Assembly (NCBI GenBank): GCA_018818835.1 | Contig: JAHIRD010000118.1 | Span: forward strand, 1-49,110 | DNA length: 49,110 nt | Source of the DNA: Pseudomonadota bacterium | Lineage (GTDB): Bacteria > Desulfobacterota > Desulfobacteria > Desulfobacterales > Desulfolunaceae | Direction: 5' to 3' | Shown here: piece by piece, positions 4,830-27,735 of the stretch | Numbering within the stretch: the first letter of the stretch is position 1 | Layout: every line of letters begins with the position of its first letter | Translations under genes and position numbers: made by a program | The notes under the pieces: generated by a model | What the model was told of the DNA's origin: nothing | Database searches by the model: none | The model's input: the letters and a program-made list of their open reading frames with translations, nothing else

Positions 4830-5131
4830 TGAAAAAACAAAAAGATAGACCTAACGAAAAACCTTTCTTTGGGTGATCCTCCCGGGAGGCCAGATTTTAT
4901 AAATCTGGACAAAGAGAGAAGAGTTAGGGCAATAAGGATGAGTTTTTATCCACGGATTTCGGTCTGGCAGGGTTCGGTGATTCTGATCAATTGATGAGAT
5001 GATGAGAACAAAGCGCTCCACCTGACCGGACTACAGTGGCGTAAATTGACCGTTGTGGCGTTGACAATCACTTTCGTTCATCTGGCTTTGTCACTGTTTG
5101 CCGCCCCTCAGGTGAGCTTATCGTTCTCAAT
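4830..5131. other. Gene-free stretch with two adjacent palindromes
   Basis: Holds CCTCCCGGGAGG (4878-4889) directly followed by CCAGATTT-TAT-AAATCTGG (4890-4908). Neither is followed by a T-run, so a terminator is uncertain. At 5031-5046 the phrase CTACAGTGGCG recurs at 14003-14013 beside the second 31-bp repeat, suggesting shared ancestry of these spacers. No gene seen. Confidence 0.5.
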
Positions 5132-5524: not shown

Positions 5525-5604
5525 CGACCAGGTTTAACTAACGGTTGCTGGCAACGAATATCCATGGGGATGATCTGGTTTCTTTAAGAAATGCCACGCC
5601 TACG

Positions 5605-5826
5605 CTAAGGGTGTTGGATTCGTTCTGACAGCCACATTTTGATAATAGCCTGTCTGGGCACACCAATTCGCTTGGATTCTTTGTCCAAGGCCTGAATCAT
5701 CCAGATCGGGAAGTCTACATTGACTCGTTTTTGCTTCTGGTTGGGGCGGGTAGCTTTTGATAGATCCACCTGATCAAGGACGTCCTGCCCATTGTCAAAC
5801 ATTTTATCCAAATCTTTAGCTTTCAT
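5605..5826 (-). CDS. brnA: BrnA-family antitoxin
   Basis: 73 residues from the ATG at 5826. The C-terminal half (RVNVDFPIWMIQALDKESK, then GVPRQAIIKMWLSERI) is a CopG/BrnA-type ribbon-helix-helix; the N-terminal part would bind the toxin. It overlaps the end of brnT by 11 bases, the usual toxin-first order of this system. An ATG six codons upstream is in frame but lies further inside the toxin gene. BrnA neutralises BrnT and, as a dimer, represses the shared promoter; a palindrome suited to this is at 6077-6093. Confidence 0.85.
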   Translation of the reverse strand: MKAKDLDKMFDNGQDVLDQVDLSKATRPNQKQKRVNVDFPIWMIQALDKESKRIGVPRQAIIKMWLSERIQHP

Positions 5827-6076
5827 AAATGGCGATTTCCTCAATTCTTGCCCGGCGAACCGAGATTATTCTTGTATTTCCCACCCGATACGTGATGATC
5901 CCCGCCCAGTGTTTTTCTTCGATTTTCCCAATAACAAGAAATCGTTGTTCATCGGTCGTCTTGGCTGGGATTTCAAGAAGATCCGGGTCATCCCAAAGCG
6001 CTTGGGCTTCCATGAAATCTATCCCATGTTTATGCTTATTCGTTTTGGACTTTTCCGGGTTGTATTCAAATTTCAT
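5816..6076 (-). CDS. brnT: BrnT-family ribonuclease toxin
   Basis: 86 residues with the BrnT pattern: MKFEYNPEKSKTNKHKHGIDF at the start (one basic His-Gly motif), a WDDPDLLEI strand, then RFLVIGKIEEKHWAGIITYR and the closing RIISVRRARIEEIAIYE. BrnT is a RelE-fold mRNA-cleaving toxin of the type II BrnTA system. The start is typical for the family even though no Shine-Dalgarno sequence precedes it: the -10 box ends only 9 bases upstream, so the message would be almost leaderless. Full length and intact. Confidence 0.88.
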   Translation of the reverse strand: MKFEYNPEKSKTNKHKHGIDFMEAQALWDDPDLLEIPAKTTDEQRFLVIGKIEEKHWAGIITYRVGNTRIISVRRARIEEIAIYES

Positions 6077-6113
6077 GGTATAATAAATATACCAAATATA
6101 TATATTTTGTCAA
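6077..6113 (-). promoter_or_regulatory. brnTA promoter and operator
   Basis: On the minus strand TTGACA (6113-6108), a 16-base spacer and TATATT (6091-6086) form a good promoter. GGTATA-ATAAA-TATACC (6077-6093) is a perfect inverted repeat covering the -10 and reaching the base before the brnT ATG. It is the natural candidate for BrnA autoregulation. Confidence 0.7.
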
Positions 6114-6245
6114 TATATTGCAAAAAATCAGCTTAAAACAGCCCCAACTAAAATTCAAGAGGGGAGCTTAATACCTATCTTATCCATAGGTTCCAATACG
6201 TCTACATCCAAATGCATGCCAAATGGGGTCGGGCCACGGGAACCA

Positions 6246-6356
6246 ATTGAATCAAAGAGATATCACTTTGAAGGATCGGTACATCGCGACCCGAAACATT
6301 GATGCTGCGGGCAAACTTGTCATGCCCGGTCTGGTGAATAGCCACACCCAGTTCCG
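6246..6356 (+). pseudogene. Amidohydrolase fragment
   Basis: A run of about 36 codons reads RYIATRNIDAAGKLVMPGLV then NSHTQF, the first strand and metal-binding H-x-H region of amidohydrolases of the cytosine/SAH deaminase type (here H-T-Q in place of H-x-H). No start, and it breaks into a transposase fragment at about 6357. Clearly a relic. Confidence 0.6.
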
Positions 6357-6471
6357 GATACAAAAGACGGATTGAATCTTGCTGTTGGTGAAGCTCACAA
6401 GCGATAACACGGAGGGTAAATTTTCGTGAAGGGTGGCGGGGGCATATATGGCAGGGTCGGTTCTCATCATT
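6357..6471 (+). pseudogene. REP-associated Y1 transposase fragment
   Basis: Nearly identical to 1607-1736 (KTDGLNLAVGEAH, then the frame-broken equivalent of the WRGHIWQGRF region). It joins directly to the amidohydrolase fragment. The 25 bases spanning the joint (6351-6375) recur at 13106-13130, so this joined scrap was itself copied. Confidence 0.65.
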
Positions 6472-6616
6472 TCTTAAATAAATCACAAATAAGGCAAAAA
6501 TGCTTTCTCAATGGTTGATATGGGGAGAAATAGTTCGTGCAGGGAAATGTGGTCACATCTTGAATAGTGAATAAATGCTTGATATTCAAAAAACCTTGCA
6601 TTTGTTCTATTTTTGA

Positions 6617-6632
6617 TACATACTGATATGTA
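6617..6632 (+). promoter_or_regulatory. Palindrome upstream of vapBC, candidate operator
   Basis: TACATA-CTGA-TATGTA is a perfect inverted repeat ending 34 bases before the antitoxin start. Antitoxins of this family usually repress their own operon through such sites. The promoter itself is not clear. Confidence 0.45.
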
Positions 6633-6666
6633 CGTTTTAGCCATATGATTGAATAGGAGAGCGTAT

Positions 6667-6861
6667 ATGCGAACAACTTTAAACATCGAAGATGACCTTA
6701 TTGAAAAGGCATCAAAACTAACCGGAATTATGGAAAAAACAGCCTTGGTTCGAAAGGGGCTTGAGACTTTGATTAGTCTGGAGAGCAGTCGGCGCTTAGC
6801 TGAATTAGGCGGAACTGAGAAAAAAATTGATATACCAAGACGCAGAAAGTCAGCGTGTTGA
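6667..6861 (+). CDS. vapB: VapB-type antitoxin (ribbon-helix-helix)
   Basis: 64 residues beginning MRTTLNIEDDLIEKASKLTG, the canonical VapB ribbon-helix-helix opening, followed by KTALVRKGLETLI and a basic tail (GGTEKKIDIPRRRKS) that would occupy the toxin's active site. AGGAGA at 6655 gives good spacing to the ATG at 6667; an in-frame ATG at 6649 lies before that site and is not preferred. The stop is one base before the vapC start, so the two are translationally coupled. Role: neutralise VapC and repress the operon. Confidence 0.9.
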   Translation: MRTTLNIEDDLIEKASKLTGIMEKTALVRKGLETLISLESSRRLAELGGTEKKIDIPRRRKSAC

Positions 6862-6862
6862 G

Positions 6863-7228
6863 ATGATTCTTGTAGATACAAGTGTTTGGATCCACCATTT
6901 CAGGGAAATTGATAATGACCTTGTTGAACATTTGAATACTGGATCGATTGCAAGTCATCCTTTTATTGTAGGAGAATTAGCGTGCGGCAACTTGTCTAAT
7001 CGTGCAGAAATTTTAATACTGTTACAAGCGTTACCTTTAACACCAATTCTTGAGCCAGACGAAATCCTTTATTTTATTGAAGAGAATTCACTTATGGGCC
7101 GCGGCCTTGGATATGTAGATATTTATTTATTGGCCTCCGCAATTCTTGGTAATGTCGTTCTATGGACTACTGATCGTCGTCTCCGCGAAGTTGCAACAGA
7201 ATTTGGGCATTCATATTTGAACGGCTAA
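6863..7228 (+). CDS. vapC: VapC-type PIN-domain ribonuclease toxin
   Basis: 121 residues, full PIN domain. The acidic metal-binding set is present: Asp in ILVDTSVWI near the start, Glu in FIVGELACGN, Asp in GYVDIYLLASA and Asp in TTDRRL. VapC toxins cleave specific RNAs, often tRNA or rRNA. The start at 6863 gives the standard MILVDTSVW opening; the longer frame overlapping vapB is not preferred. Intact and paired with the antitoxin just upstream. Confidence 0.9.
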   Translation: MILVDTSVWIHHFREIDNDLVEHLNTGSIASHPFIVGELACGNLSNRAEILILLQALPLTPILEPDEILYFIEENSLMGRGLGYVDIYLLASAILGNVVLWTTDRRLREVATEFGHSYLNG

Positions 7229-7410
7229 CAATCGGCTGTTTGCGGACTTGCTTCTCTCGCCGCTTTCGTGATTCGCCGCCCGGCCCGTGTTTTGTGGGTT
7301 TATGATTAAAAAACTCGGCTACACCATTAAACGGGCAGGGGGGTGGTTCATCAAACCACTTCCCGTGGGGATCAGGACTATCGATCAATTCCCATGGAAT
7401 CATGAGTGCC

Positions 7411-7542
7411 TTAACGATTTGTGGTTGTATCAGGTTTGCTTTTGGGTTGTTTGTCCTTCTTGATCTTGTCTTTTTGCTTCTGTTTTGCATCATCCTGTTT
7501 CTGGCCTTTTTCCTTATCCTTCTTTCCGCCCTTGTCTCCCAT
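7411..7542 (-). CDS. Small lysine-rich protein, 43 residues
   Basis: A short gene read from ATG at 7542 to TAA at 7411, with a strong AAAGGAG ribosome site 8 bases upstream. The product starts MGDKGGKKDKEKGQKQDDAK and is more than a third lysine, with Gln and Asp making up most of the rest and a KQPKSKP end. I recall similar tiny Lys/Gln-rich proteins annotated as hypothetical in sulfate reducers, but no function is known to me. It is likely unstructured; nucleic-acid binding is a guess. The strong ribosome site and codon-wise clean composition argue for a real gene. Confidence 0.6.
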   Translation of the reverse strand: MGDKGGKKDKEKGQKQDDAKQKQKDKIKKDKQPKSKPDTTTNR

Positions 7543-7894
7543 GGTGAAGCTCCTTTTTTTGCGTTATCATATTTTATAACGTATCTGATGCCAGCCGATA
7601 TAGCAAATACCATTTCACCCGGATCCGTCAAATGGGCCGTCAATTTTACACCCTAAATTGACGTTTTAAGGTTTGAAACGGTGCATTCTCCTTTAGTTAG
7701 TGTCATCAGGAATTCAATCAACGTAAAAAAGAAAAGGGGCTTTCTGGGTGGACCGGTATCACGCCACAGCCATTTATAAACCGATCACTCTGCGCCCTGC
7801 TGTAACCCAACGCCCGACAGACCCTTTTTTTGTCTTTTTTTATTTCGTCCAAAAGCACTCCAAAGGTTTCGGGTAAATTATTTTTTCCGTAGCC
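7543..7894. other. Gene-free stretch
   Basis: No gene is supported here. The first ~50 bases hold the ribosome site and probable promoter of the small lysine-rich gene. Around 7820-7850 there is a T-rich run (CCTTTTTTTGTCTTTTTTT). The 7600s contain short frames in several phases without homology. Confidence 0.4.
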
Positions 7895-8538
7895 CTAACG
7901 GACACTGAAAACAGGTTCGGAGGAGGGGTCGTTCTCCGTTTCCGGTATTTGCCGGTTTTTTGTGGCCACCGTTATCAGGGCGGGGGCCAGTAATAAATCG
8001 GCCAGCAGAGCCAGAAGGATAACGATTCCCGTTTCCGCAAATGAGAAGGACAACAGTCCGGCTGCCGTGGTGACACTGGTCATAAAAACGGCTAAGCCTT
8101 AGTGGCCCATGGCATAACAGATGGCGTCTTCTTTTTCGCTCCCTTGGTCGAACTGTTTGTAGAAAATGGCGAGAATATGAATGGCATCGGCAACCCCCAC
8201 AGCCAAGATAAAACTTGGGACCACCATGGTCATATCGGATATGGGGGTTTGGGATAGAGCCATCAAGCCGATAGTGCATATCGTGGCATTTGTAACAATA
8301 ACCAAGGGATAAACAACCCCGGAAATCCGCCTGAGAAGAAGCAATAAGAAGATGATGATCGTTAGATCCGTCAAGGCCACAAATTTCTTCATATCCGAGT
8401 CCGAGGTGCGGTTAAACGTATCAACCATGACGTCAGTGCCCGTGAAAGACAGTTTAAAATCATTGGACTGCCTGATATCTGACATAAGCATCTCCTTAAA
8501 TTCAAAAGATTCGAGGGCCTTTGGAATCTGTGTAATTG
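7895..8538 (-). pseudogene. MMPL/RND-family exporter, C-terminal remnant
   Basis: The frame reads as the last third of an MMPL-type RND transporter: a periplasmic end (FKLSFTGTDVMVDTFNRT), a membrane helix (LTDLTIIIFLLLLLRRISG), the PSFILAVGVADAIHIL segment with its functional Asp, then FMTSVTTAAGLLSF and a last helix ending LLADLLLAPALITV. A single in-frame TAA at 8101-8099 follows CYAMGH and interrupts it, and a short stretch seems missing after SFAET. The N-terminal two thirds are absent and it joins directly onto the nitroreductase remnant. Confidence 0.75.
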
Positions 8539-8539
8539 A

Positions 8540-8800
8540 ATAAAGAACATGAAGAATTTAGCCACCATAACGGCGTCTTTTTCCATTCGGGCAATGATCT
8601 CCCGGCTGTTGATTTCCCGTTGACGGTGCAAATCTCCCGGCTTCCAATATTCGTTTGATCAATGACTCCGGCAGGGTCTTGTTTTTGAACTTCCGGATGC
8701 TGCGCCGTTCCATAATGACCTTTTCCACGGCATTCCAGGGTATCCCTTCCTCGTAGACATAGCAGGGCGACATCTCATCTTTCGGTTGTTTTATAAGCAT
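8540..8800 (-). pseudogene. Nitroreductase, truncated and frameshifted
   Basis: Starts well: AAAAGGAG, spacing 6, ATG at 8800, then the nitroreductase signature ERRSIRKFKNKTLPESLIKR and EAGRFAPSTGNQQP, which forms the FMN-binding site. A frame change at about 8635 follows; the next frame continues with EIIARMEKDAVMVAKFF before merging into the MMPL remnant. So the gene has lost its second half. It is the last member of the minus-strand Fe-S operon, 54 bases after the Cys-rich membrane protein gene. Confidence 0.7.
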
Positions 8801-8854
8801 GTGTCGCTCCTTTTAATCACGTCTTCATATGAACCAACTTGTAACCCCGGACGT

Positions 8855-9376
8855 TCAATGTTTCCTGTTCGAATTCCCTATGCAATTCGTGTTTTTGCAA
8901 CGTGGGCAGCTGTATTCGTGGATGAGGAACAGGGCGGAAGCCCCAGGCGCGAGAACGATCAAAGCTTTGCCTAAAAACACCGGGAAACTGTTTGCAAAAT
9001 AGATGACGATGGCTGGAAACACTAAATGGACAATCAAAATGATTACCCATGCCCTCATTTTAAGGGCTGTGCTGGGTTCTTCCACCTTTTCTGTTATAAA
9101 CGGAACCACAAGGCCTACGGCCAGATAACATCTCTTGCCGTAGTAATAACAATGACGGCATGTTGCGTAACAGGCAAAGGCAAAATTCAACAAACCGATC
9201 AGCAAAAAAAGAACCAGGGGCAAAACTCCGGTTTCAAAGGTGTAATAGGCCCCCAGGATAACAAAACCGGATACAAGCGCCACGATTAAAGAGACAAACG
9301 ATAAGGGCCATTCTTCGTATTTTTCACATCTTCCGTTACGGTTTACACAATGTCTCGCCAGCATGTCAGCTGCCAT
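8855..9376 (-). CDS. Cysteine-rich four-helix membrane protein, unknown
   Basis: 173 residues from the ATG at 9376, which has AAGGAG 8 bases upstream; the ATG two codons earlier is only 2 bases from that site. Four hydrophobic segments are visible (about 24-45, 48-68, 105-128, 130-150). Cysteines come in sets: one near the N-terminus (ARHC...GRC), CYATCRHCYYYGKRC between helices 2 and 3, and CPRCKNTNC at the C-terminus, the last looking like a metal or Fe-S ligand set. The family is not recognised. It lies downstream of two paralogous Fe-S proteins in one direction, suggesting a redox or metal-linked role. Confidence 0.65.
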   Translation of the reverse strand: MAADMLARHCVNRNGRCEKYEEWPLSFVSLIVALVSGFVILGAYYTFETGVLPLVLFLLIGLLNFAFACYATCRHCYYYGKRCYLAVGLVVPFITEKVEEPSTALKMRAWVIILIVHLVFPAIVIYFANSFPVFLGKALIVLAPGASALFLIHEYSCPRCKNTNCIGNSNRKH

Positions 9377-9452
9377 CTGCATAGCTCCTTATTTCAAAAG
9401 GTAAAACCAAAACAGACAGGATCTATAGTGCCTGGCCGGGTGCCCTTAACAT

Positions 9453-10640
9453 TTACGGTTTCAAACCAACAATCCCCTTGGCTGTGGAGAAAAGCTTGCC
9501 CACGGCACCTTTTTTCCCGTCCATGATGATTTGGAACTTTTCCTCCATGGTATTGGGAGGCACGGTCTCCGTGTCTTTTTTGACCAGTTTCAGCGCCCCG
9601 GCCTTGCAGGTGGTGACACACAAGCCGCAGCCGATGCATTTCCCGGTATTTAAGACCGCCATTTTACCTTTCTTTTTGTTTTTCAATGTAAACGCGTCTG
9701 TCTGGCAGCGTTTCACACACGTGCCACAGCCGTTGCATAATTTTGTATCGAGCGCGGCGTAGTAATTACTGGCCACGAAATCCGCCGGATGGGGAAAAGA
9801 TTTCAGCAATTCGACGATACCGCAGCAGCAGCCGCAGCAGAAGCAAATGGCCTCCGGGTTCTTCTCGTTAAACGGATGAATGATGAGTCCTTCTTTTTCA
9901 CAAAGATCAATATGTTCAAGGGCTTCCTCTCTCGTAATGACCCGTGCCCAGCCGTTTCGCGCATACTGGGCGCCGAAATCACCCAATCCCATACACGTTT
10001 CTTTTCTGTCTGTGCGTTCACACGACTTACCGACCAGGTTGCTTGCCTTGCGGCAAATACATTCGGCAATGCAGATCTCTTGTTCCGTATGTTTGATGAT
10101 GTGCCTGATTTCGTCATAGGCAGCGATGTTGTGTTCGGGAGTGACGCTTTTTTCCACCGGAATGACACGCATCTGGGGAATGGCCGAGGTCATGTACTCA
10201 ATGAGAAAGTAGGGAACGACATATTTCCGCATATCCAGCCACAGGCCGGGAGTCAGAGCATCAAGATGCATTTCAAACATGCCCAAAATCAGGGGGTGCA
10301 AAGCATACTTCCATATGCCGTCACCGTTTTTTGCAAAGATAGCGCCCTTCTTTTCCATGCTTTCGAGCAGGCTCCCCACCTTTTCCCTTTCCATGCCCAA
10401 GGGGCCGCCGGCTTTTTCAAAAATGGTGTCCGCGGTTTCAAAACGCCAGTCCATGTAAACAGCCACGCGGGCTTCGTCAACGCTGAACATATCCTTTAAA
10501 ATCCGCCGTTCCACACCGGTGATAGTGGCTGGAAAACCCACCGGCATGGTGTTCAAATGCTTTCTAAGAGCTTTGTAAGACTTGTCTGAATTGTGCAAAT
10601 AATTGATACTATGAGTAAGGCTCTTTATGGTTGTTTTCAT
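9453..10640 (-). CDS. Winged-helix / multi-cluster 4Fe-4S protein, paralogue 2
   Basis: 395 residues. Residues about 25-150 look like a winged-helix region (TMPVGFPATITGVERRILK, then a segment typical of DNA- or protein-binding wings). A middle Cys domain has C190, C194, C196, C207 and C216, followed by the unusual ICFCCGCCCG (C266, C268, C269, C271-273). Two standard [4Fe-4S] motifs follow: C302-x2-C305-x2-C308-x3-C312 and C335-x2-C338-x2-C341-x3-C345. It is a close paralogue of the preceding gene, 18 bases away, with AGGGGG before its ATG. Likely a cytoplasmic electron-transfer or redox-sensing protein; the substrate is unknown. Confidence 0.8.
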   Translation of the reverse strand: MKTTIKSLTHSINYLHNSDKSYKALRKHLNTMPVGFPATITGVERRILKDMFSVDEARVAVYMDWRFETADTIFEKAGGPLGMEREKVGSLLESMEKKGAIFAKNGDGIWKYALHPLILGMFEMHLDALTPGLWLDMRKYVVPYFLIEYMTSAIPQMRVIPVEKSVTPEHNIAAYDEIRHIIKHTEQEICIAECICRKASNLVGKSCERTDRKETCMGLGDFGAQYARNGWARVITREEALEHIDLCEKEGLIIHPFNEKNPEAICFCCGCCCGIVELLKSFPHPADFVASNYYAALDTKLCNGCGTCVKRCQTDAFTLKNKKKGKMAVLNTGKCIGCGLCVTTCKAGALKLVKKDTETVPPNTMEEKFQIIMDGKKGAVGKLFSTAKGIVGLKP

Positions 10641-10658
10641 GCAACCCCCTTCTCAGGT

Positions 10659-11834
10659 TTATGGTTTCAATCCAAAGGCCCCCTTGGCAGCCGACATAAG
10701 TTTGCCCACAGTGCCTTTTTTCCCGTCCATAATGATTTCATACTTTTCTTCCATGGTATCGGGCGGTACGGTTTCAGTGTCTTTTTTGACCAGTTTTAGA
10801 GAACCGGTTTTGCACGTGGTGACACACAACCCGCAGCCAATGCATTTACCGAGATTCAATACCGCCTTTTTGTCTTTCAACTCTATGGCATTCATCTGGC
10901 AACGCTTCAGGCACTTGCCGCATCCGTTGCATGATTCTTCATCGAGTGCGGCGTAAAAATTACTGGCTACGAAATCCGCTGGCCGGGGAAAGCTACTCAG
11001 TGCTTCGATGACCCCGCAGCAACAGCCGCAGCAGAAGCAGATGCCATCCGGGTTTTTTTCATTAAACGGTTGTATGACGCACCCCTCTTTTTCACACAGA
11101 TCAAGATGTTTAAAGGCTTCTTCTTTTGTGATGGAACGTCCCCAGCCGTTTCGGGTATACGCGGCGCCGAAATCACCGAATCCCAGACAGAATTCTTTTC
11201 TGTCCGTGGCTTTGCACGGCTCTCCTGTCATCCGGTGCGCCTTGCGGCAAATGCATTCGGCGATGCAGATGTCTTTATCCGTATGCTCGATGATATGCCT
11301 GATTTCATCATAGGAGGCGATGGCGTGCTCGGTAGTGATACTTTTTTCCACCGGAATGACTCGCAGTTGGGGAATAGCAGAGGTCAGGTATTCGATGGAA
11401 AGGGTTGGAACGAAATATTTCCGCATGTCCAGCCACAAAGCCGGAGTAAGGGTGGTGACTTGAAATTCAAACATACCGATGACAAGCGGGTGCAAAGCAT
11501 ACTTCCAAACGCCGTCACCGTTTTTGGCATAAATGGACCCTTGTTTATCCATGGCGGAGAGCAGGTTGTCCACCTCTTCCCTTGTCATGGAAAGGGGGCC
11601 GCCAGCCTTGTTGAAGATGGTTTCCGCAGTTTCAAAGCGCCAGTCCATATACAGGGCCAAACGAGCCTCGTCAACGCTGAACATGGCTTTCAATATCCGC
11701 CGCTCAACACCGGATAAGGTGGCCGGTAATCCCACCGGCATGGTGTCCAAATGCTTTCGGAGTTTTTTGTAGGTTTTGTCATAATGTCTTGCTTTGACAA
11801 CCTTATTTTTCAGACTCAGGGCGACATGTTTCAT
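10659..11834 (-). CDS. Winged-helix / multi-cluster 4Fe-4S protein, paralogue 1
   Basis: 391 residues, first gene of the operon, with GAGGAGG before its ATG. The layout matches the next gene along the whole length: winged-helix-like N-terminal third (TMPVGLPATLSGVERRILK), middle Cys domain (AECICRKAH and later cysteines), ICFCCGCCCG, two C-x2-C-x2-C-x3-C ferredoxin motifs and a common tail (TMEEKYEIIMDGKKG). The N-terminal ~20 residues and the last few differ most. A tandem duplication that kept all cysteines in both copies suggests that both are used, perhaps as a heteromer. I know this type only as uncharacterised 4Fe-4S binding proteins of anaerobes. Confidence 0.8.
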   Translation of the reverse strand: MKHVALSLKNKVVKARHYDKTYKKLRKHLDTMPVGLPATLSGVERRILKAMFSVDEARLALYMDWRFETAETIFNKAGGPLSMTREEVDNLLSAMDKQGSIYAKNGDGVWKYALHPLVIGMFEFQVTTLTPALWLDMRKYFVPTLSIEYLTSAIPQLRVIPVEKSITTEHAIASYDEIRHIIEHTDKDICIAECICRKAHRMTGEPCKATDRKEFCLGFGDFGAAYTRNGWGRSITKEEAFKHLDLCEKEGCVIQPFNEKNPDGICFCCGCCCGVIEALSSFPRPADFVASNFYAALDEESCNGCGKCLKRCQMNAIELKDKKAVLNLGKCIGCGLCVTTCKTGSLKLVKKDTETVPPDTMEEKYEIIMDGKKGTVGKLMSAAKGAFGLKP

Positions 11835-11937
11835 GGAACCTCCTCATTCGGTTCGTTCGATTGAATTATATGCTGTCGTAAAATCATTGAAACAGGTAAG
11901 AAAAATCACGTGCCTTGCCAAGACGCTTTTCCATCTT

Positions 11938-12087
11938 TGAAGAACTCGAAAAAGGCGTCGGATGGCTATGGAAAAAGGTCCATAGGCAAGGCATAGTGTT
12001 TGGCCGGGGTTACGGCATACACGAGCGTATGTCGACTGTCCGGCTAAACACTATAACGTCCCATATGGGACTTTTTACGACGCCATC
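11938..12087. repeat. MITE-like palindromic repeat, copy a (full length)
   Basis: One end reads GAACTCG, the other CATATGGGACTTTTTACGAC followed by GCCATC. The centre TAGTGTTTGGCCGG pairs with CCGGCTAAACACTATA (12040-12055). Shared blocks include GATGGCTATGGAAAAAGGTC. Three other copies occur in this window. It carries no gene, as expected for a non-autonomous element. It lies upstream of the Fe-S operon. Confidence 0.8.
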
Positions 12088-12368
12088 ATCTTTGTGTGAT
12101 TCGGTCATGGGCTGGCCGATGTCATCATCTCGATAAAAATAGTAAAAAGTAAGACTCTTAACTTTCATAATGTCATTGGGGTCCATGAGTCAAGAAAAAA
12201 AATAGTAAAGATATTTCACGGTCAATAGATTAACGTCTCAATGGGTCAAAAGGGGTCCAAATGGGCAAATGGCACAAACGGGGTTGTCCAAATGGCAAAG
12301 GGGGGCGAGACACGGTAACATACTGCATACTGAAATAAAATTAAATGACATCAAAAATGCCGAAGCCC
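12088..12368. other. Gene-free stretch with short direct repeats
   Basis: Low-complexity-like DNA with near-repeats: AAATAGTAAA at about 12139 and 12203, and GTCCAAATGG at about 12257 and 12288. No gene, no hairpin with T-run seen. It separates the MITE copy from the end of the nucleotidyltransferase gene. Confidence 0.4.
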
Positions 12369-13227: not shown

Positions 13228-13270
13228 ATAACGCTTGACGTTATTATCGGGTTGCGTTATTGTACTGGCC
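13228..13270 (+). promoter_or_regulatory. higBA promoter and operator
   Basis: TTGACG (13235-13240), 17-base spacer and TATTGT (13258-13263) form a promoter whose expected transcription start is at or just before the higB ATG at 13271, so the message would be leaderless. The inverted repeat ATAACGC (13228-13234) / GCGTTAT (13254-13260) brackets the -35 and touches the -10, a fitting HigA operator. Confidence 0.6.
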
Positions 13271-13552
13271 ATGTTAAAATCATTCCATGATAAAGAGACA
13301 GAAAAAATTTTCAACAGGCAAACCTCAAGAAAGTTGCCACAGGATATTCAGCGTATTGCAAGGAAAAAATTGGTAATTCTTGATGCTGCGGTCCAACTGA
13401 ATGATTTGCGAACGCCACCGGGTAATCGATTGGAGGCATTAGAACGAGACCGGAAAGGTCAACACAGCATACGCATTAATGACCAATGGCGGATTTGTTT
13501 TAAGTGGCGCAATGGTGATGCGTATGATGCTGAAATAACAGATTATCATTAG
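13271..13552 (+). CDS. higB: HigB-family mRNA-cleaving toxin
   Basis: 93 residues from the ATG at 13271, which gives the family's standard opening ([14 protein letters not shown]). The RelE/HigB fold is recognisable from [48 protein letters not shown] and the closing DYH. HigB cleaves mRNA on the translating ribosome. No Shine-Dalgarno sequence precedes the ATG. The antitoxin gene follows 8 bases after the stop: the toxin-first order typical of HigBA. Confidence 0.9.
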
Positions 13553-13560
13553 GAGTTGAT

Positions 13561-13857
13561 ATGAACAAACAGCTTCCACCTATCCATCCTGGCGAAATTC
13601 TTATGGAGGAGTTTTTAGAACCCATGGGAATCAGTCAGTATCGTTTGGCAAAAAACATAAGTGTTTCTCCAAGACGTATAAATGAAATTGTACATGGGAA
13701 AAGGTCCATTACCGCAGATACAGCTCTTCGACTCGGACGTTTTTTCGGAATGTCCCCTCAATTTTGGCTAAACCTCCAAAATCGATACGATCTTGAGATG
13801 ACCGAAGATTTTTTAGCGGGCAGACTTGATAACGAGGTTCATGCCCTTCAAACTTAG
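13561..13857 (+). CDS. higA: HigA-family antitoxin (XRE helix-turn-helix)
   Basis: 98 residues with the HigA signature: [20 protein letters not shown], then the XRE helix-turn-helix ([36 protein letters not shown]) and [15 protein letters not shown]. It would bind HigB and repress the operon through the palindrome overlapping the promoter. AGGAG with 5-base spacing precedes its ATG, a much stronger ribosome site than that of higB, which would favour antitoxin excess. Intact. Confidence 0.92.
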
Positions 13858-16853: not shown

Positions 16854-18284
16854 ATGATGATTTCCAGGGAAGCTCAGGACAGATTTCTTAAAATTATATT
16901 TATTGCAGGACTGGGATGTGCTGTATTATCTGCCCTGGAAAGCCAGGTTGATTGGATTGCCTCTTTCTGCTCTTTCTGGGGTGAGGGTTGCAGGGAAACA
17001 GGAAAAATAAGCCTTTTTCACCTTCCTGTCCCTATCTGGGGCATCATCTATTATCTTATTCTTGTTGTTTCTTCGTTTATAGCCCCACGGTTTCTTTTTT
17101 ATATCGTGATGGCCGGTGTCGGCGTTGAACTGACCCTGGTTTCCATGATGCTTGAAATGAAATGGGCCTGTCTGTTCTGTTTAGCCAATTTATTGCTGGT
17201 CATTCTTTCCGTTGCTTTATTATTTGATCATAAACGTATCTGGCAGGCTCTGGCTTTGAGTGCTTTGTGCTTTATGGTCTCGGACCATATGCTTACCACG
17301 GATTCCATGAAATCGATTCAAGAGAAAGTCAGGGCTCCGGAACTCTCTGTGCTTGCCCAGGTGGGTGATGATATGATTCGGGAAAGTGAGGTCACTGAAC
17401 CCCTTTCAAGCCGGATTTATAAACTTCAAAGACAGATTTATGAACTTAAAAAAGAACGTTTGGACTTTCTTATTGATCGGCGTTTGATTAATCTGGAGGC
17501 TGCTGAAAAAGGATTGTCTCCGGAAGTGCATACGTACAAAGTGTTCAATGACGATACGCAGGTCTCCGAAGAAGAGGTTGAACAGTACATTCAGGCCTCG
17601 CCTGGAATCCTTGAAAGCTGGAAAGGGCCTGAGCAGGAGCTTAAAAAAAGACTTAGACAATACCTGCAAGACCAGAAAACCAAGAATAAGATTGCAGAAT
17701 ATACAAAGCCCCTGAAACAAAAATACACGGTCCGGATATTTCTTGAACCTCCGTCCCTTCCGGCCACATCGGTCAAAGTAGGGGCAAGCCCATCCCTGGG
17801 CCCCGAGGATGCGGCAGTGGTTGTTTTTGAATATTCTGATTATCAGTGCCCATCCTGTCGGAATGCCCATGGTGTATCCGTGAAAATTCGTGACAGATTC
17901 AAAGGGAAAATCAGGTGGGTATTCAAGGACTATCCCCTTGAACGTCACAGAGAGGCCCGACTTATGGCTCAGGCTGCCCGGTGTGCAGGGGAACAAGGGA
18001 AATTTTGGGAATATCAGGATCTTTTATATTCATCCCAGGATCATCCTGATGTTGAAGTTCTGAAGGGATTTGCCAAACAATTGAATCTGGATGTGGAACG
18101 TTTTACCCGGAGTCTTGAAAGCGGAAAATTCGATGCCATCATTGAAAAAGAAAAACAAAGTGCCAAAGAGGCAGGGGTAAGTTCCACACCGACGTTTGTC
18201 ATCAACGGCCGTTTGAGTCCCGGTTTTATGAGCTTTGAGAAGATGTCCGAATTGATTGAACGTGAACTGGAAAAAAATTATTAA
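16854..18284 (+). CDS. VKOR / SurA-like / DsbA-like thioredoxin fusion
   Basis: 476 residues. Residues 1-145 are a vitamin K epoxide reductase-type membrane domain with four or five helices, loop cysteines C39 and C46 and the CxxC site C106-LF-C109. Residues about 165-295 form a helical, lysine-rich region resembling a SurA N-domain (ERLDFLIDRRLINLEAAEKG). Residues about 305-476 are a DsbA-like thioredoxin domain with active site C332-PS-C335 and the cis-Pro loop TPTF (Pro446). The expected reaction is disulfide formation in exported proteins, with electrons passed from the DsbA part to the VKOR part and then to quinone. A fused middle domain suggests binding of unfolded clients. It lies 77 bases before the dehydroquinate synthase gene. 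Confidence 0.88.
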   Translation: MMISREAQDRFLKIIFIAGLGCAVLSALESQVDWIASFCSFWGEGCRETGKISLFHLPVPIWGIIYYLILVVSSFIAPRFLFYIVMAGVGVELTLVSMMLEMKWACLFCLANLLLVILSVALLFDHKRIWQALALSALCFMVSDHMLTTDSMKSIQEKVRAPELSVLAQVGDDMIRESEVTEPLSSRIYKLQRQIYELKKERLDFLIDRRLINLEAAEKGLSPEVHTYKVFNDDTQVSEEEVEQYIQASPGILESWKGPEQELKKRLRQYLQDQKTKNKIAEYTKPLKQKYTVRIFLEPPSLPATSVKVGASPSLGPEDAAVVVFEYSDYQCPSCRNAHGVSVKIRDRFKGKIRWVFKDYPLERHREARLMAQAARCAGEQGKFWEYQDLLYSSQDHPDVEVLKGFAKQLNLDVERFTRSLESGKFDAIIEKEKQSAKEAGVSSTPTFVINGRLSPGFMSFEKMSELIERELEKNY

Positions 18285-18361: not shown

Positions 18362-19387
18362 GTGAAAAAAATTGACATCCAAGGCCGTTCGGGCAAATCC
18401 ACCATTATGGTGGGTGAATATCTGGATCGGCTTACACGCTATATTCCATCCGACAATGTGGTTCTGATTACGGATGAAAATGTTTCCAGGCTTTATAGAA
18501 AACAGTTTCCCCATGCCCCGGTGATTACCATTGGCACCGGGGAAAAAATAAAAACCCTGGACACAGCCGGGGAAATCTATCAGGCACTTCTTGATATGGA
18601 TGCCCAGCGTTCAAGTTTTATTGTGGGTATTGGCGGAGGGATTGTTTGCGATATCACAGGCTTTATTGCATCAACCTATTTACGTGGGGTCCCTTTTGGC
18701 TTTGTTTCATCAACACTTCTTTCCCAGGTGGATGCCAGTGTGGGGGGAAAAAACGGGGTGAACTTCAAGGGCTTTAAAAATATGGTGGGTGTTTTTAACC
18801 AGCCTGATTTTGTGATCTGCGATTTGAACCTGTTGAAAACCTTGCCCCAAAGGGAGCTTTTGTGTGGTTTTGCTGAAATTGTGAAACATGCAGCCATCGA
18901 AGATGCAGGAATGTTCGACTATCTTGAGAAAAACAATGAAAAAGCGCTTAAGCTTGACGTGGATGTGATTGAAAAACTGGTTTACGATTCCGTACGTATC
19001 AAATCCGGTGTGGTCAACAGGGATGAAAAGGAAAAAGGAGAACGGCGTAAGCTCAATTTTGGTCATACCTTTGGCCATGCCATTGAAAAGACCCTGGGCC
19101 TTCCCCATGGCGAATCCGTCAGCCTGGGTATGGTCATGGCCGCATCTCTGTCCGTACAAAAAGGTCTTTTGTCCCAAAAAGACGCACGACGTATCACAGA
19201 GCTTCTGAATTGTTATAACCTTCCCACTCGGATTGATTTTGATCGCAGGCAGATTCTTGATGCCCTGAAAAAGGATAAAAAAAGGAAAGGGGATCATATC
19301 CATTTTGTCCTGCTGAACGGAATTGGATCCTGTTTGATTGAGGATATCGCCATTGAAGAGCTGGATCGGGTCATGGACAGCCTATAA
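18362..19387 (+). CDS. aroB: 3-dehydroquinate synthase
   Basis: 341 residues, GTG start with AGGAG 6 bases upstream. NAD and substrate sites are intact: IVGIGGGIVCDITGFIAST, the Lys-Asn run VGGKNGVNF...KNMVG, FAEIVKHAAIE (metal Glu), and RRKLNFGHTFGHAIE (metal His pair with Arg/Asn), then LKKDKKRK near the C-terminus. It should convert DAHP to 3-dehydroquinate. It is slightly short for the family (usually ~350-370). What is notable is the company: a KDPG-type aldolase 9 bases downstream and an HMGL-type aldolase next, with no other aro genes, so this may be a second, specialised copy. Confidence 0.88.
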   Translation: MKKIDIQGRSGKSTIMVGEYLDRLTRYIPSDNVVLITDENVSRLYRKQFPHAPVITIGTGEKIKTLDTAGEIYQALLDMDAQRSSFIVGIGGGIVCDITGFIASTYLRGVPFGFVSSTLLSQVDASVGGKNGVNFKGFKNMVGVFNQPDFVICDLNLLKTLPQRELLCGFAEIVKHAAIEDAGMFDYLEKNNEKALKLDVDVIEKLVYDSVRIKSGVVNRDEKEKGERRKLNFGHTFGHAIEKTLGLPHGESVSLGMVMAASLSVQKGLLSQKDARRITELLNCYNLPTRIDFDRRQILDALKKDKKRKGDHIHFVLLNGIGSCLIEDIAIEELDRVMDSL

Positions 19388-19396
19388 GGGGATGAC

Positions 19397-20017
19397 ATGC
19401 TGACGGAAAATGCACCGGTCATTGGCATCGTGAGGGGAGTCAGGCCAGATTATTTCGGTGGGATCATGGAGGTTTCTTTTGAAGCCGGCCTTGACGCCAT
19501 GGAAGTAACCATAAACACACCCGGGGCGCTTTCCATTGTTTCAAACAGCAGGGATAAGGTCCCCAAGGGTAAGTGGCTGGGCATGGGAACCATTCGAAAT
19601 ATTTCCGAGGCAATGTCGGCCTGGGATGCCGGGGCCATGTTCTTTGTTACGCCCAATCTTGATCTGGCTGTGATTGATTTTGCCGTATCCCGTAAAATAC
19701 CTATTATTGCAGGTGCTTTGACACCCACGGAAGTCTATGCGGCAAAAAACGCCGGGGCAGATATGGTCAAAGTGTTTCCAGCCAGTGTTTTTGGGCCCCG
19801 GTATTTTAAGGATCTTCATGGCCCGTTTGACACGGTTCCCCTTGTGGCTGTGGGAGGCGTGTCCCTTGAAAATGTCCGGGACTATCTGGACGCAGGCGCT
19901 TCTGCCGTGGGGGTAGGAGATACTTTGTTTGGACGGTCCGCTATGGATCAGGGCCAGTTTCAGGCTATCGGTAAACAGGTTCGATTGTTTATGGAACAGT
20001 GCCAAAAGAACATTTAA
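19397..20017 (+). CDS. eda: KDPG/KDPGal-type class I aldolase
   Basis: 206 residues of the Eda family. Motifs: IGIVRG with Arg14, MEVTIN with Glu36, LGMGTIRN, FFVTPNLD, IAGALTPTEV, and VKVFPAS with the Schiff-base Lys125, then VAVGGVSLENVRDYL for phosphate binding. The family makes or cleaves bonds between pyruvate and an aldehyde (KDPG to pyruvate + glyceraldehyde 3-phosphate). No Entner-Doudoroff dehydratase is nearby; instead aroB is 9 bases upstream. Engineered KDPGal aldolases are known to join pyruvate and erythrose 4-phosphate to DAHP, the AroB substrate, which raises that possibility here. The actual substrate is not shown by the sequence. Confidence 0.85.
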   Translation: MLTENAPVIGIVRGVRPDYFGGIMEVSFEAGLDAMEVTINTPGALSIVSNSRDKVPKGKWLGMGTIRNISEAMSAWDAGAMFFVTPNLDLAVIDFAVSRKIPIIAGALTPTEVYAAKNAGADMVKVFPASVFGPRYFKDLHGPFDTVPLVAVGGVSLENVRDYLDAGASAVGVGDTLFGRSAMDQGQFQAIGKQVRLFMEQCQKNI

Positions 20018-20101
20018 GGGTTGTAAATCGTTCATAAAAACGGTAATGACAATTTTCGTTTTATAAACTATTTTTATTATTTACATAATCGGAGAGATAC
20101 T

Positions 20102-21052
20102 ATGTTCAGGCCAGAAATTAAAGTGATAGATTGCACGGTCCGTGATGGAGGACTGATGAATAAATGGCAGTTTGACACGGCATTTGTTCAAAACGTTTAC
20201 CAAGCAACAGCAGCCGCCGGTATTGATTATATGGAAATCGGTTATCTCAGTTCTGAAAGTGCCTTTTCCAGGGAAGAATTCGGTCCCTGGAAGTTTTGTG
20301 CTGAAGCGGATCTGAAAAAAATAATCGGATCGGAAGATAAAAAAATCAAATTGTCAGCCATGGCCGATATCGGGCGAATCGATTATGCAGATATTCCGCT
20401 TCGATCCGAGAGTTCCATTGATATGATCAGGGTGGCCTGCTATGTTCATCAGGTTGATAAGGCTGTTGCCCTTGCACACCACTGCATGGACAAGGGCTAC
20501 GAAACCACCATCAACCTGATGGCCGTTTCCACGGTGGGTATCAGGGATCTTAACGAGGCCCTGGAAGACCTGTCTAAAAGCCGGGTTCCCATCATCTATC
20601 TTGTTGACAGTTTCGGAGCCTTTTACTCCGAAGATATTGATATGCTGGCCGCCAAATATATGGAACGACTTCCGGGAAAGACCATTGGTATCCACACCCA
20701 TAACAATCAACAGCTGGCTTTTTCAAATACCATTACCGCCATCATCAATGGTGTTAATTATCTTGATGGCAGCCTTTACGGGATTGGCAGGGGGGCAGGG
20801 AACTGCCCCATGGAGCTGCTTTTATCTTTTCTGAAAAACCCTAAATTCAAGGTGAGGCCGCTGATTGAGGTGATTGAAAAAGATATTTTTCCGTGGCGGG
20901 ATAAAATTGACTGGGGCTATTTTATTCCGTATATGGTCACAGGGGTTCTGAACGAACATCCCCGGTCAGCCATGGCACACATGGAGTCGGATCGAAAGAA
21001 CCAGGTGGTTGAATATTTTGATAAGATGAATGGCGAACTGGGCTACGTGTAG
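20102..21052 (+). CDS. HMGL-like aldolase (4-hydroxy-2-oxovalerate aldolase type)
   Basis: 316 residues forming an HMG-CoA lyase-like TIM barrel. VIDCTVRDGGLMNKW carries the catalytic Arg14-Asp15 pair; IGIHTHNNQQLAF gives metal ligands His198 and His200 with Asn202 nearby; GIGRGAGNCPMELLL is the conserved Gly-rich loop. Members split or join pyruvate-type substrates with a divalent metal. It lacks the C-terminal DmpG communication domain and no acylating dehydrogenase is adjacent, so a channelled DmpFG pair is unlikely. It follows the eda-like gene by 84 bases in the same direction; GGAGAGATACT precedes the ATG. Substrate unknown. Confidence 0.8.
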   Translation: MFRPEIKVIDCTVRDGGLMNKWQFDTAFVQNVYQATAAAGIDYMEIGYLSSESAFSREEFGPWKFCAEADLKKIIGSEDKKIKLSAMADIGRIDYADIPLRSESSIDMIRVACYVHQVDKAVALAHHCMDKGYETTINLMAVSTVGIRDLNEALEDLSKSRVPIIYLVDSFGAFYSEDIDMLAAKYMERLPGKTIGIHTHNNQQLAFSNTITAIINGVNYLDGSLYGIGRGAGNCPMELLLSFLKNPKFKVRPLIEVIEKDIFPWRDKIDWGYFIPYMVTGVLNEHPRSAMAHMESDRKNQVVEYFDKMNGELGYV

Positions 21053-24551: not shown

Positions 24552-25979
24552 TCATGAACCAAGAGGGAGGCTGTTCAGGATGTTTTTCAGAGTTTTCAAG
24601 ACGCTTTTTTTTGCGGTTTCTTTTTTTTCGGGATCTTTTGATTTCAATGCTGAAAAGAAGGTCAGGAAGTCATTCCGGACATCTTGGGGCCAGTGAGCCG
24701 TATAGCTCATACTTTTTTCATCAGGGGATATCCCCGGGGCCATAGAGGTTTCAGTGTCTCTCTTGCCATGGGCCCAGTTAATCACATGGGTGTAGAAAAG
24801 CAGGGCCCTGTCCAGGAGAATGGACATGAAAAGGACATTATGATGGGGTCCCACCTTGACTTTGAATCCCCCCAACGTTTTACCCATCACCTTGACCCGG
24901 GCTATTTGGTTTGCACCCAGAAGGGCAGATCCCGCACCGGCAACGCCTCCCAAAAGTGCGAACAAACCCAGGGAATGTCCGGCCACGGCAATGTCCAGAA
25001 TGGCAGCTGTTGCACCTCCAATTGTGGCGGCTGTGGTGGCTAACTGAACTTTGGTAAGGCCCAGGACTTTCCAGGTTTCCGAATCAAAAAGCTCCTTGGA
25101 TAATATGGAGTGCCCGGGCAGCATGATGTTGAAAATATTGTGTTTGAAAAGACTGCGTATGCGTTGATAGGCGTCTTTTTCAAAAGAACTGATATCCTTG
25201 TTCCATTGTTCAATGAGTTGCTTTTTATCGGACGTTTTTCGGGAAGCGTCACGGATTGTCTTTTTGACAGTGTGGGTCAGGCATGTTTCGATCAGGTTCA
25301 AGATGATTTCCGACGTCAGGGCATTTCGATGGCTCCAGTCGTCTTTGAAGGCTTTGATAACTCTGGAAAGTGTTTCCTGGAGCCTCTGGTCAATGGTGCC
25401 GAGTTGTTCCAGAAGGAATAGCCGCTCACGGTAACTTGCAAGATGGGCATTGAAATAGATCACCTTATCGAAATGACTGGCAAAGGCTTGTTCCCATTCC
25501 GGGTTAAAACGGTTTTCATCTGTCTTGTTATTGATGATGCCGATTCGTGGCCTTTTGATCAGACTGAGGATCTCCATCTCCGCACGATCATTGCTTCGAA
25601 GAGGGCGCGAGCCATTGGCAACATAGATGATTCCCGCCCCCCGTCCAATGGGCGATAATAATTCAACTTCGTCTTTGAATGTTGGATTGTCACGGTTCTC
25701 GATTATGAAATCCTGCACCATGTTTTCCTGGGGGCCTGTGTATTTCTCGAACCATGAAAGGGTCTGGCGGGGTACCTGGAAACCCGGTGTGTCTGTGAAC
25801 CGTATGATTTCGATTCCATCAATGGTTACGGGAAAGATTCGGCATTCGGTGGTTTCACCCGGATAGGAGCTGATTTTTACGCTGTCATCTTCGGTCAGAG
25901 TTGAGACCAGTGACGATTTCCCTTCATTGGGGTGGCCAAGTACGGCAAATTCCGGGATGGGGGCAGGCTCTATGATCAT
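24552..25979 (-). CDS. DUF3482-type GTPase
   Basis: 475 residues from the ATG at 25979 (AAGGA upstream). An N-terminal GTPase domain has Walker A GHPNEGKSS (15-23), DTPG (63-66) and NKTD (150-153). The later part matches the DUF3482 layout: a charged helical region, a hydrophobic, small-residue-rich stretch (about 317-360, LATTAATIGGATAAILDIAV) able to contact or enter the membrane, and a C-terminal helical tail. The function of the family is not known to me beyond a GTPase paired with DUF2868 membrane proteins. The partner gene is directly upstream, separated only by a MITE copy. Confidence 0.85.
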   Translation of the reverse strand: MIIEPAPIPEFAVLGHPNEGKSSLVSTLTEDDSVKISSYPGETTECRIFPVTIDGIEIIRFTDTPGFQVPRQTLSWFEKYTGPQENMVQDFIIENRDNPTFKDEVELLSPIGRGAGIIYVANGSRPLRSNDRAEMEILSLIKRPRIGIINNKTDENRFNPEWEQAFASHFDKVIYFNAHLASYRERLFLLEQLGTIDQRLQETLSRVIKAFKDDWSHRNALTSEIILNLIETCLTHTVKKTIRDASRKTSDKKQLIEQWNKDISSFEKDAYQRIRSLFKHNIFNIMLPGHSILSKELFDSETWKVLGLTKVQLATTAATIGGATAAILDIAVAGHSLGLFALLGGVAGAGSALLGANQIARVKVMGKTLGGFKVKVGPHHNVLFMSILLDRALLFYTHVINWAHGKRDTETSMAPGISPDEKSMSYTAHWPQDVRNDFLTFFSALKSKDPEKKETAKKSVLKTLKNILNSLPLGS

Positions 25980-26052
25980 GAATTGGTATTCCTTAAGCAC
26001 ATTGGATATTATTAGGACTTATAGCCCCATCTCTTTTTTCGTCTTTTAAATG

Positions 26053-26122
26053 TGATGAACTCGTAAAAAGTCAACGGATGGCTATGGAAAAAGGTCCAAA
26101 GGCCAATTTTACGACGCCATCA
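26053..26122. repeat. MITE-like palindromic repeat, copy c (internally deleted)
   Basis: 70 bases: GTGATGAACTCGTAAAAAGT at one end, AATTTTACGACGCCATCAC at the other, forming terminal inverted repeats. The block GATGGCTATGGAAAAAGGTC is present but the central hairpin is gone. It sits in the spacer between the DUF2868 and DUF3482 genes, inside what is normally one operon. Confidence 0.8.
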
Positions 26123-26135
26123 CATGTCATCGACC

Positions 26136-27707
26136 CTAAAGTGATTCTATGCTGATATTGGGATCGGCCAGGGCATTGATGGCTTGTTTCCAGACACGGA
26201 GATCATCATCCTCCGGTTTTGTAAATATCGTCTGGTCCTCGGGTTTTCCTGCTAATAATAGATGAAGCCTGAAATTCTGTCCACCGCGTTGTTTGAGAGC
26301 CCTAATATAATGGATGATTTCCCGGATAGGGGGTTGCCAGGCTTCCATGAGAAGGACCATCCGGCAATTCGCCTGGGGAAAGAGGGCATCAATTATTTTT
26401 TCATCATGATCCATGCGAAGACTGACTGCTGCTTTTTGATGGAAAGGCGAACGGAAAAGGGCTTCTATATGTTTTTTCAGCTCAAGGTCATGGCAGGATT
26501 CAATAATATCCTCTGGTACAAGGACAATGATCGGGCCTCCATGGGGGCTCATGGACACAGGGGCTTGGGGATTCAGGTCGTATGAATGATGCATCGGCGT
26601 GTGTTCAGGCTGTCCATGGGTATCCAGTGAAGGAGAACGAAGCCTGATGAGGAGTCTGTCAAAGGCAATGCTTTGAAAGTTTATCCGTTTGAGGGCCCGT
26701 TGTTTCATGATATGGGCGCCTGTCAGGAACACGAGTCTTGGAATAAGGCCGTAGAAAAGCACGGCAAAACACAAAAAAGGCCACCAGGCAATAAGATCCG
26801 GTGTCCCCAGCCGGGCGATTCCGTCTTTGAGAATAATCCGTGATCCTTCAATTTGGGATAATGAGGGGTGGGCCAGATAATCGGGCACAAACCAGGCCCA
26901 GGGATAAGATAGAAATACGGTGGCTTTGTGGACTGCCGCAGCACTGAGCTGCAGGGTGGACTGCCAGCCAAACGCAAGGTCGGATCCGATCACCCTGAGC
27001 AGAGTGGCGATAAGGACTCCGATATTAAAAAAAATGGCAAACACCTGGGTGAGGATAAACACGGGCCAGGGAAAGAGATGGGAGTAATGGCGGCTTTTCC
27101 CCTGGATGACACCCAGTGCAGCCTTGAATTCACTGCGTTTTTCCACTGAAAAATGACGTTCCGATCTTTTTTTTATCCACATGGACAGTTTTACAAGGAT
27201 AGAGTAGACACCCATCCTGATCAGGGAAAAATTGTTGATTTTGAACGTGAAACGAGCGAAAATCAGGTAAAGCAGAACAAGGAAAATCAGAAACACCTGG
27301 GTGAGGACAAAAAGACCCAGATAAGAGGAAATGTTTAAGGGAGCACTTCCCTTGTAGATGAGAAAGGAAAAGGACAGGCCCGACCCTGAGCAGAACCCCA
27401 GAATGATGAACATCAATGTCATGAATGCATAGATTTGTTTGAATACATCACCCGGGAGCGTGGGATGATCAAGAGGCGGACGTCTTTTTTCCGATTTGCG
27501 TCGGAACTCCAGCCAGTGTCTGATCACAACGTTGTCCGGAACATGGCTTTCCGAAATCATGGGTTCAATGGATTCCAGGTAGAACGACCGGTCCAATTTA
27601 TTCTGTTCGGTCTTTTCCTGGCCGTTCGGAAGGTTCTGGTCACGATGAAGAAAATATTCCAGGTCAATCAGATCTTCGATGGTCCATGAACTTGTTTTGG
27701 GGGTCAT
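26136..27707 (-). CDS. DUF2868-type membrane protein
   Basis: 523 residues from the ATG at 27707 (GAGG just upstream; a TTG six codons earlier is possible). N-terminal cytoplasmic part (TIEDLIDLEYFLHRDQ), then about six membrane helices: two at about 105-165, one or two at 225-260, and one at 310-340 (numbers approximate), with a long soluble C-terminal domain (PIIVLVPEDIIESC and SLRMDHDEKIIDALFP). The domain order matches the DUF2868 family, which is found next to DUF3482 GTPases. Together they probably form a GTP-driven membrane module of unknown purpose. Another MITE copy is directly upstream. Confidence 0.82.
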   Translation of the reverse strand: MTPKTSSWTIEDLIDLEYFLHRDQNLPNGQEKTEQNKLDRSFYLESIEPMISESHVPDNVVIRHWLEFRRKSEKRRPPLDHPTLPGDVFKQIYAFMTLMFIILGFCSGSGLSFSFLIYKGSAPLNISSYLGLFVLTQVFLIFLVLLYLIFARFTFKINNFSLIRMGVYSILVKLSMWIKKRSERHFSVEKRSEFKAALGVIQGKSRHYSHLFPWPVFILTQVFAIFFNIGVLIATLLRVIGSDLAFGWQSTLQLSAAAVHKATVFLSYPWAWFVPDYLAHPSLSQIEGSRIILKDGIARLGTPDLIAWWPFLCFAVLFYGLIPRLVFLTGAHIMKQRALKRINFQSIAFDRLLIRLRSPSLDTHGQPEHTPMHHSYDLNPQAPVSMSPHGGPIIVLVPEDIIESCHDLELKKHIEALFRSPFHQKAAVSLRMDHDEKIIDALFPQANCRMVLLMEAWQPPIREIIHYIRALKQRGGQNFRLHLLLAGKPEDQTIFTKPEDDDLRVWKQAINALADPNISIESL

Positions 27708-27735
27708 TGTCCTCGTTTCCGTCAAAAAAAACTGT

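Follow-up and report, generated by a model that had tools for sequence, protein, structure and literature searches.

A conserved aroB, class I aldolase and HMGL gene trio in a Desulfobacterales genome lacking DAHP synthase: a possible second branch to dehydroquinate

The window analysed here is the whole 49,110-nucleotide stretch of contig C46 in a Desulfolunaceae draft genome (G000; 6.75 Mb, completeness 97.96%). It carries a module of three genes, all on the forward strand and in a single direction, comprising aroB, a class I aldolase (KDPGA) gene and an HMGL gene (Table 1). An earlier note on this DNA had described aroB as followed after 9 bases by the aldolase gene and then by the HMGL gene, and the coordinates confirmed this arrangement; the second spacer, between the aldolase and HMGL genes, comprises 84 bases and is A+T-rich. 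Ribosome-binding-like motifs were recognized by eye 5' of all three starts, and promoter and terminator scans of the locus yielded nothing richer than shuffled sequences. The VKOR/DsbA-like gene upstream adjoins the module also in one related genome (G035) and not in the other module loci compared, and at L087 a 38% match stands some 3.5 kb away from the aldolase gene; this upstream gene is probably outside the pathway. Elsewhere, the window holds a HigB-like toxin gene followed by an HTH antitoxin-like gene (13235-13857), a tandem pair of paralogous ferredoxin-domain proteins of 391-395 aa (9453-11834, reverse strand), and a DUF2868 gene adjoining a GTPase-DUF3482 gene (24552-27725, reverse strand).

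Table 1. Features of the module and its upstream neighbor, in window coordinates
Feature	Position	Strand	Remarks
VKOR/DsbA-like gene	16854..18284	+	thioredoxin/DSBA domains; VKOR part by eye
aroB, 3-dehydroquinate synthase	18362..19387	+	GTG start; 341 aa; TIGR01357
Class I pyruvate aldolase, KDPG/KHG/KDPGal family	19397..20017	+	206 aa; PF01081; DgoA-like motifs
Codon of Schiff-base Lys125	19769..19771	+	calculated with 19397 as gene start
HMGL/DmpG-fold protein, commonly paired with the aldolase	20102..21052	+	316 aa; PF00682

Judged by its sequence, the first protein is a canonical AroB (3-dehydroquinate synthase), which passes the AroB equivalog model TIGR01357 with 350.1 bits against a cut-off of 305. 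Fourteen residues that we take to be DAHP, NAD and metal contacts (R120, D136, K142, K151, N152, E184, K187, K226, R240, N244, H247, H251, H264 and K323) are invariant in an alignment of 10 sequences that includes E. coli AroB. Because these canonical residues are kept, the product is probably ordinary dehydroquinate (DHQ). Membership in the AroB-related putative cyclase family TIGR04425 was ruled out (273.6 against a cut-off of 400). In the AroB tree, one clade unites the module AroBs with those from 20 further fetched loci, almost all belonging to the same order, and the module-linked AroBs themselves fall into two clades. DAHP synthase adjoins AroB in 17 of these 20 loci (15 from the comparison, L062 and L068 by eye), leaving L065, L160 and L164 with an AroB of the module clade and no adjacent DAHP synthase. 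An import of aroB from Bacteroidota is unsupported, as four of the five Bacteroidota AroBs examined lie far away in the tree; the fifth, L202, forms a long branch near the module AroBs.

The second protein is assigned to the KDPG/KHG/KDPGal aldolase family (PF01081, 112.8 bits; cut-off 27.8). The intact Schiff-base Lys125 reported in the earlier note was borne out by an alignment of 19 aldolases, Eda included, in which this column is invariant and corresponds to K126 of E. coli DgoA. Further motifs common to the window aldolase and DgoA are N[ST]P in the region of the catalytic Glu, VTPN, FGPxY and AVGGV, whereas Eda carries RT, ISPG, a GG loop and PTGG at the aligned sites; the Val/Thr position of the aldolase motif presumably bears on C4 stereochemistry. 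Among the other aldolases aligned, that of G035 departs from DgoA at VTPN (VTPI), those of G087 and G146 have incomplete DgoA-like motifs (VSPI/ILPV, ACGG), and those of Nitrospirota show a different motif type. The strict KDPGal aldolase model for DgoA, PRK09140, was not passed (145.2 against a cut-off of 207), and of the NCBIfam models listed, none was passed at its cut-off by the aldolase or by the HMGL protein. The predicted aldolase structure (pLDDT 93.8) reached its top Z score, 30.6, with the KDPGal aldolase complex 2v82, which is tied with the KDPG/KHG aldolase 8di1 at 30.1, and the top Foldseek ranks were occupied by Thermotoga-type KDPG aldolases and nanocages on that fold. On its motifs, the protein looks KDPGal-like.

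The third protein is a DmpG-fold member of the HMGL-like superfamily (PF00682, 83.1 bits; cut-off 29), and it does not pass the 4-hydroxy-2-oxovalerate aldolase model TIGR03217 (102.5 against a cut-off of 286). Its predicted structure (pLDDT 86.2) best matched the putative aldolase 3dxi and DmpG-type aldolases. In the alignment, Leu18 stands at the place of DmpG His21, which we take to be the catalytic base of DmpG, and the aligned Asp and His-x-His presumably represent the metal site. Origins on mobile elements were rejected: one scan of viral contigs found no relative, the strongest of four phage records reached 50.9% with 67% of the query covered, and plasmid relatives reached at most 49.2%; neither AroB nor KDPGA had a match in the stretches surrounding the top two plasmid HMGL hits.

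The absence of DAHP synthase, claimed in the earlier note, extends to the whole genome for both type I and type II enzymes. The sole PF00793 match is KdsA, encoded by a kdsA-kdsC-lptC-like row as read by eye, and PF01474 (type II DAHP synthase) has no match in the genome. A second aroB with its own DAHP synthase, which the note had named as evidence against its proposal, does not occur elsewhere either, the window AroB being the one PF01761 match in the whole genome. However, the genome encodes an AroB' of the ADTH route (PF01959), and contig C137 carries the row aroA'-aroB'-pheA-aroE-aroA-aroK-aroC-tyrA (names other than aroB' by eye). Since aroA'-aroB' lies within this aromatic operon, DHQ for the aromatic amino acids can come from ADTH chemistry without the module, and the module as sole entry to the shikimate pathway is ruled out. 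The proposal of a natural pyruvate-fed shikimate entry is consequently retained in part: it is favored by the conserved linkage described below, the missing DAHP synthase, the canonical AroB and the KDPGal-like aldolase, but it fails as a sole entry because aroA'-aroB' also gives DHQ.

Conservation was examined in a sample of 291 genomes, in which every listed row is labelled as the own genome, the same family or the same order. An HMGL match at E <= 1e-50 was found in 17 of the 291, and 14 of these are close (48-100% identity, own genome included). The aldolase adjoins HMGL in 12 of the 14 close genomes; the exceptions, G027 and G066, hold HMGL and DAHPS-like proteins and no such KDPGA. The search for the same neighborhood in other genomes, suggested by the earlier note, located AroB beside HMGL in seven of the 14 (G000, G035, G047, G161, G177, G087 and G146), with the three genes linked in more than one gene order. 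This recurrence of the same gene adjacency in other genomes makes a chance neighborhood unlikely. In G146, a second PF00793 protein falls in the DAHPS range and AroB' is missing, so its linked AroB may be an ordinary shikimate AroB. The aldolase-HMGL pair occurs together with DAHPS-like proteins in G022, G056, G153 and G180, and in G255 (77% complete) it accompanies AroB' and a DAHPS-like protein, with no AroB found. The remaining three of the 17 HMGL matches are 35-47% identical and lie within long open frames. At L036, an HMGL domain (47% identical) is fused to a thioesterase and adjoins a salicylate-synthase/aryl-AMP-ligase fusion, as checked with HMMs. This locus of the same order (3424-12319) also encodes a PPTase, a methyltransferase and two receptor-like proteins (receptors by eye), and is a probable salicyl-capped siderophore cluster.

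The retention of AroB was tabulated by hand, with cut-offs for AroB and DAHPS alike chosen after the lists had been seen. AroB was called strong at E below 1e-36. A genome was counted as having a DAHPS-like protein if it gave at least two PF00793 matches or a single match at E below 1e-77, and as lacking one if it gave no match or just one weaker hit. AroB' was present in 130 of the 291 genomes. Among these, 79 also held a DAHPS-like PF00793 protein, and 70 of the 79 had a strong AroB; these 70 of the 130 AroB'-bearing genomes therefore have two apparent DHQ routes. Where AroB' was lacking, strong AroB was found in 145 of 161 genomes. Strong AroB thus mostly goes with DAHP synthase in the sampled relatives. 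The remaining 51 genomes combine AroB' with the absence of a DAHPS-like PF00793 protein; 40 have no AroB match, five have a weak one (G083, G200, G211, G264 and G276), and six have a strong AroB. These six are G000, G035, G047, G087, G161 and G177, and in all six AroB lies beside KDPGA-HMGL (Fisher p 5.6e-8, uncorrected for kinship). Among AroB'-bearing sampled genomes, strong AroB without type I DAHPS therefore occurs only beside the module. One genome outside the AroB' set, G281 (74% complete), which also lacks the module, combines a strong AroB with one low PF00793 match.

The earlier note had also asked for DAHP synthase to be sought in genomes sharing the linkage; six of the seven have no DAHPS-like PF00793 protein, G146 being the exception, and these six, the only ones of the 51 covered by the type II search, have no type II enzyme either. 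The absence of type I in G035, G047, G161, G177 and G087 is called from an E-value range of 1e-72 to 1e-75, and the PF00793 protein was read as KdsA in G000 alone among the six. A DAHP synthase that escaped detection, in an assembly gap or as a new family, could feed the window AroB. All six genomes are drafts, with 87-99% completeness for the five besides G000, which leaves room for such an enzyme; nevertheless, the same gap recurs in six genomes from three families, some of them 98-99% complete, and we consider this explanation improbable.

The association between AroB and the module is not confined to one clade, because the module-linked HMGLs occupy three separate positions in their tree and the AroBs belong to two clades. 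Given the DAHPS-AroB arrangement that prevails in the AroB clade, the aldolase in these six genomes takes the usual place of DAHP synthase beside AroB. Alternatively, a catabolic or promiscuous aldolase pair could stand by happenstance beside a relict AroB, with no joint pathway. The KDPGA tree, which is poorly resolved, has long branches for G000 and G035, suggesting a fast-evolving aldolase; AroB is, moreover, adjacent in only half of the close HMGL genomes and in none of the named loci described below. Against a relict, the AroB'-bearing genomes that keep a strong AroB in the absence of type I DAHPS coincide exactly with those carrying the AroB-linked module (six of six), and the linkage is found with differing gene orders and spans two clades of AroB; this alternative appears unlikely.

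Besides the sampled genomes, the analysis covered named loci, that is, the best 80 of at least 585 HMGL relatives in a GTDB-based collection, some of them on short contigs. Among these best 80, KDPGA adjoins HMGL in 30, among whose titles or labels are Desulfobacterota, Nitrospirota, Nitrospinota and Auribacterota, and AroB lies beside HMGL in none. Another 23 carry an isochorismate-lyase/chorismate-mutase-like ORF of about 100 aa upstream of HMGL (L105-L109, L113, L114, L116-L119, L123, L125, L127-L129, L131, L132, L134, L135, L137, L138 and L156), all labelled Bacteroidota except one MAG labelled Chlorobiota. This ORF ends about 10 to 100 bases 5' of HMGL, the position of the aldolase in other phyla, and in the two such ORFs scanned the isochorismate lyase model scored best, below its cut-off. 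The remaining 27 have neither gene beside HMGL. At L124, as read by eye, the genes after HMGL are pheA-, aminotransferase- and DAHPS-like. Eight loci, mostly Nitrospina (L142, L144, L148-L152 and L154), encode a conserved protein of about 90 aa directly 3' of HMGL-KDPGA. Of 48 named-locus genomes, two of which apparently repeat sampled ones by matching coordinates (G291 = G022, G300 = G066), 42 have AroB, one has AroB', and 43 have PF00793 matches, many in the KdsA range. Type II DAHPS was found in 16 of 62 genomes searched, several with Desulfobulbaceae or Desulfocapsaceae names, and the aldolase lies beside HMGL in 14 of the 16.

This distribution lends weight to the main competing explanation, in which KDPGA and HMGL constitute, across several phyla, a pathway of their own to a dedicated cyclic or hydroxybenzoate-type product and AroB was recruited to perform a single cyclization. 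The shikimate AroB would then serve in trans where present, and genomes with only the ADTH route would need an operon-borne copy. The frequency of the pair in loci without an adjacent AroB is consistent with such a pathway, as are the lyase/mutase-like ORFs, the gene row at L124 and the HMGL-thioesterase fusion at L036. Nevertheless, the loci compared show no tailoring, transport or regulatory gene that recurs alongside the trio, the product cannot be named, and an AroB with canonical residues probably makes ordinary DHQ. We regard this explanation as a serious possibility, slightly less likely than the branch described next.

The most likely function of the operon, with a probability of roughly 0.4, is a second, DAHP-synthase-independent branch to DHQ beside ADTH. 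The KDPGal-type aldolase would form a Schiff base with pyruvate, which would add to erythrose 4-phosphate to give DAHP or a close stereoisomer; AroB would cyclize this product to DHQ, and HMGL may act on a compound derived from pyruvate, within this same short pathway. We infer the aldolase substrates, the stereochemistry of the product and everything concerning the HMGL reaction. The restriction of strong AroB to the module among AroB'-bearing genomes without type I DAHPS supports an aldolase that may supply the AroB substrate, adding a DHQ branch rather than the sole shikimate entry. Against this branch, the KDPGA-HMGL pair is common where DAHP synthase is present, and an extra DAHP source is not needed in those genomes for that reason; AroB' already provides DHQ, and the proposal leaves HMGL unexplained. 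The KDPGA tree, moreover, groups the DAHPS-less genomes into no clade, and the incomplete DgoA-like motifs in G035, G087 and G146, the lack of such a KDPGA in G027 and G066, the second PF00793 protein of G146 and the strong AroB of G281 speak against the branch as well. A broader version, in which PEP-independent natural DAHP synthesis by a class I aldolase forms the second DHQ branch and is coupled to an HMGL step that connects the chemistry of pyruvate with products of shikimate or hydroxybenzoate type across several phyla, is conceivable and somewhat doubtful.

Should DAHP prove to be a natural product of the aldolase, the module would be an exception found in nature to the textbook rule that canonical AroB needs DAHP synthase, the engineered pyruvate-fed shikimate route would gain a natural model, and the odd distribution of AroB without DAHP synthase would be explained. 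The analysis also marks a widespread, uncharacterized aldolase-HMGL pair as a target. Passages of a survey (Zucko et al. 2010; PMC3018139) credit the KDPGal aldolase of E. coli with forming DAHP in place of DAHP synthase, naming PEP as donor, and record an HMM-based detection of KDPGal aldolase for 14 of 108 prokaryotic proteomes without DAHP synthase; those passages contain no gene-neighborhood evidence. Among the titles and abstract openings listed from the open-licence literature, none describes such a gene set, and no open-licence paper was found on a gene cluster of KDPG aldolase and dehydroquinate synthase or on an aldolase catalytic domain combined with a chorismate mutase. What the present analysis adds is the conservation of the operon, a lack of DAHP synthase across the whole genome and the pattern in which AroB is retained; the engineered route was already known.

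That route, a pyruvate-based shikimate entry with KDPGal aldolase, was reportedly engineered by Ran, Draths and Frost in 2004. Like the module, it combines a KDPGal-type aldolase with AroB to obtain DHQ from pyruvate and erythrose 4-phosphate; the module differs in being a natural operon that joins AroB and HMGL in a genome without DAHPS, and in that its activity is putative. The ADTH pair AroA'/AroB', encoded in the same genome, resembles the proposed module as an aldolase and cyclase that reach DHQ without DAHPS, but it belongs to unrelated protein families and uses aspartate semialdehyde and a deoxyketo sugar phosphate, unlike the substrates proposed here. The GriI/GriH-type pair likewise unites an aldolase with a DHQS-type cyclase, with other enzyme families and substrates. 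HMGL shares with DmpG the fold and the aligned Asp and His-x-His, but lacks an adjacent dehydrogenase partner. Finally, the DAHPS-AroB pair of related genomes employs an AroB of the module clade, whose neighbor there is DAHP synthase (17/20) and here is a class I aldolase.
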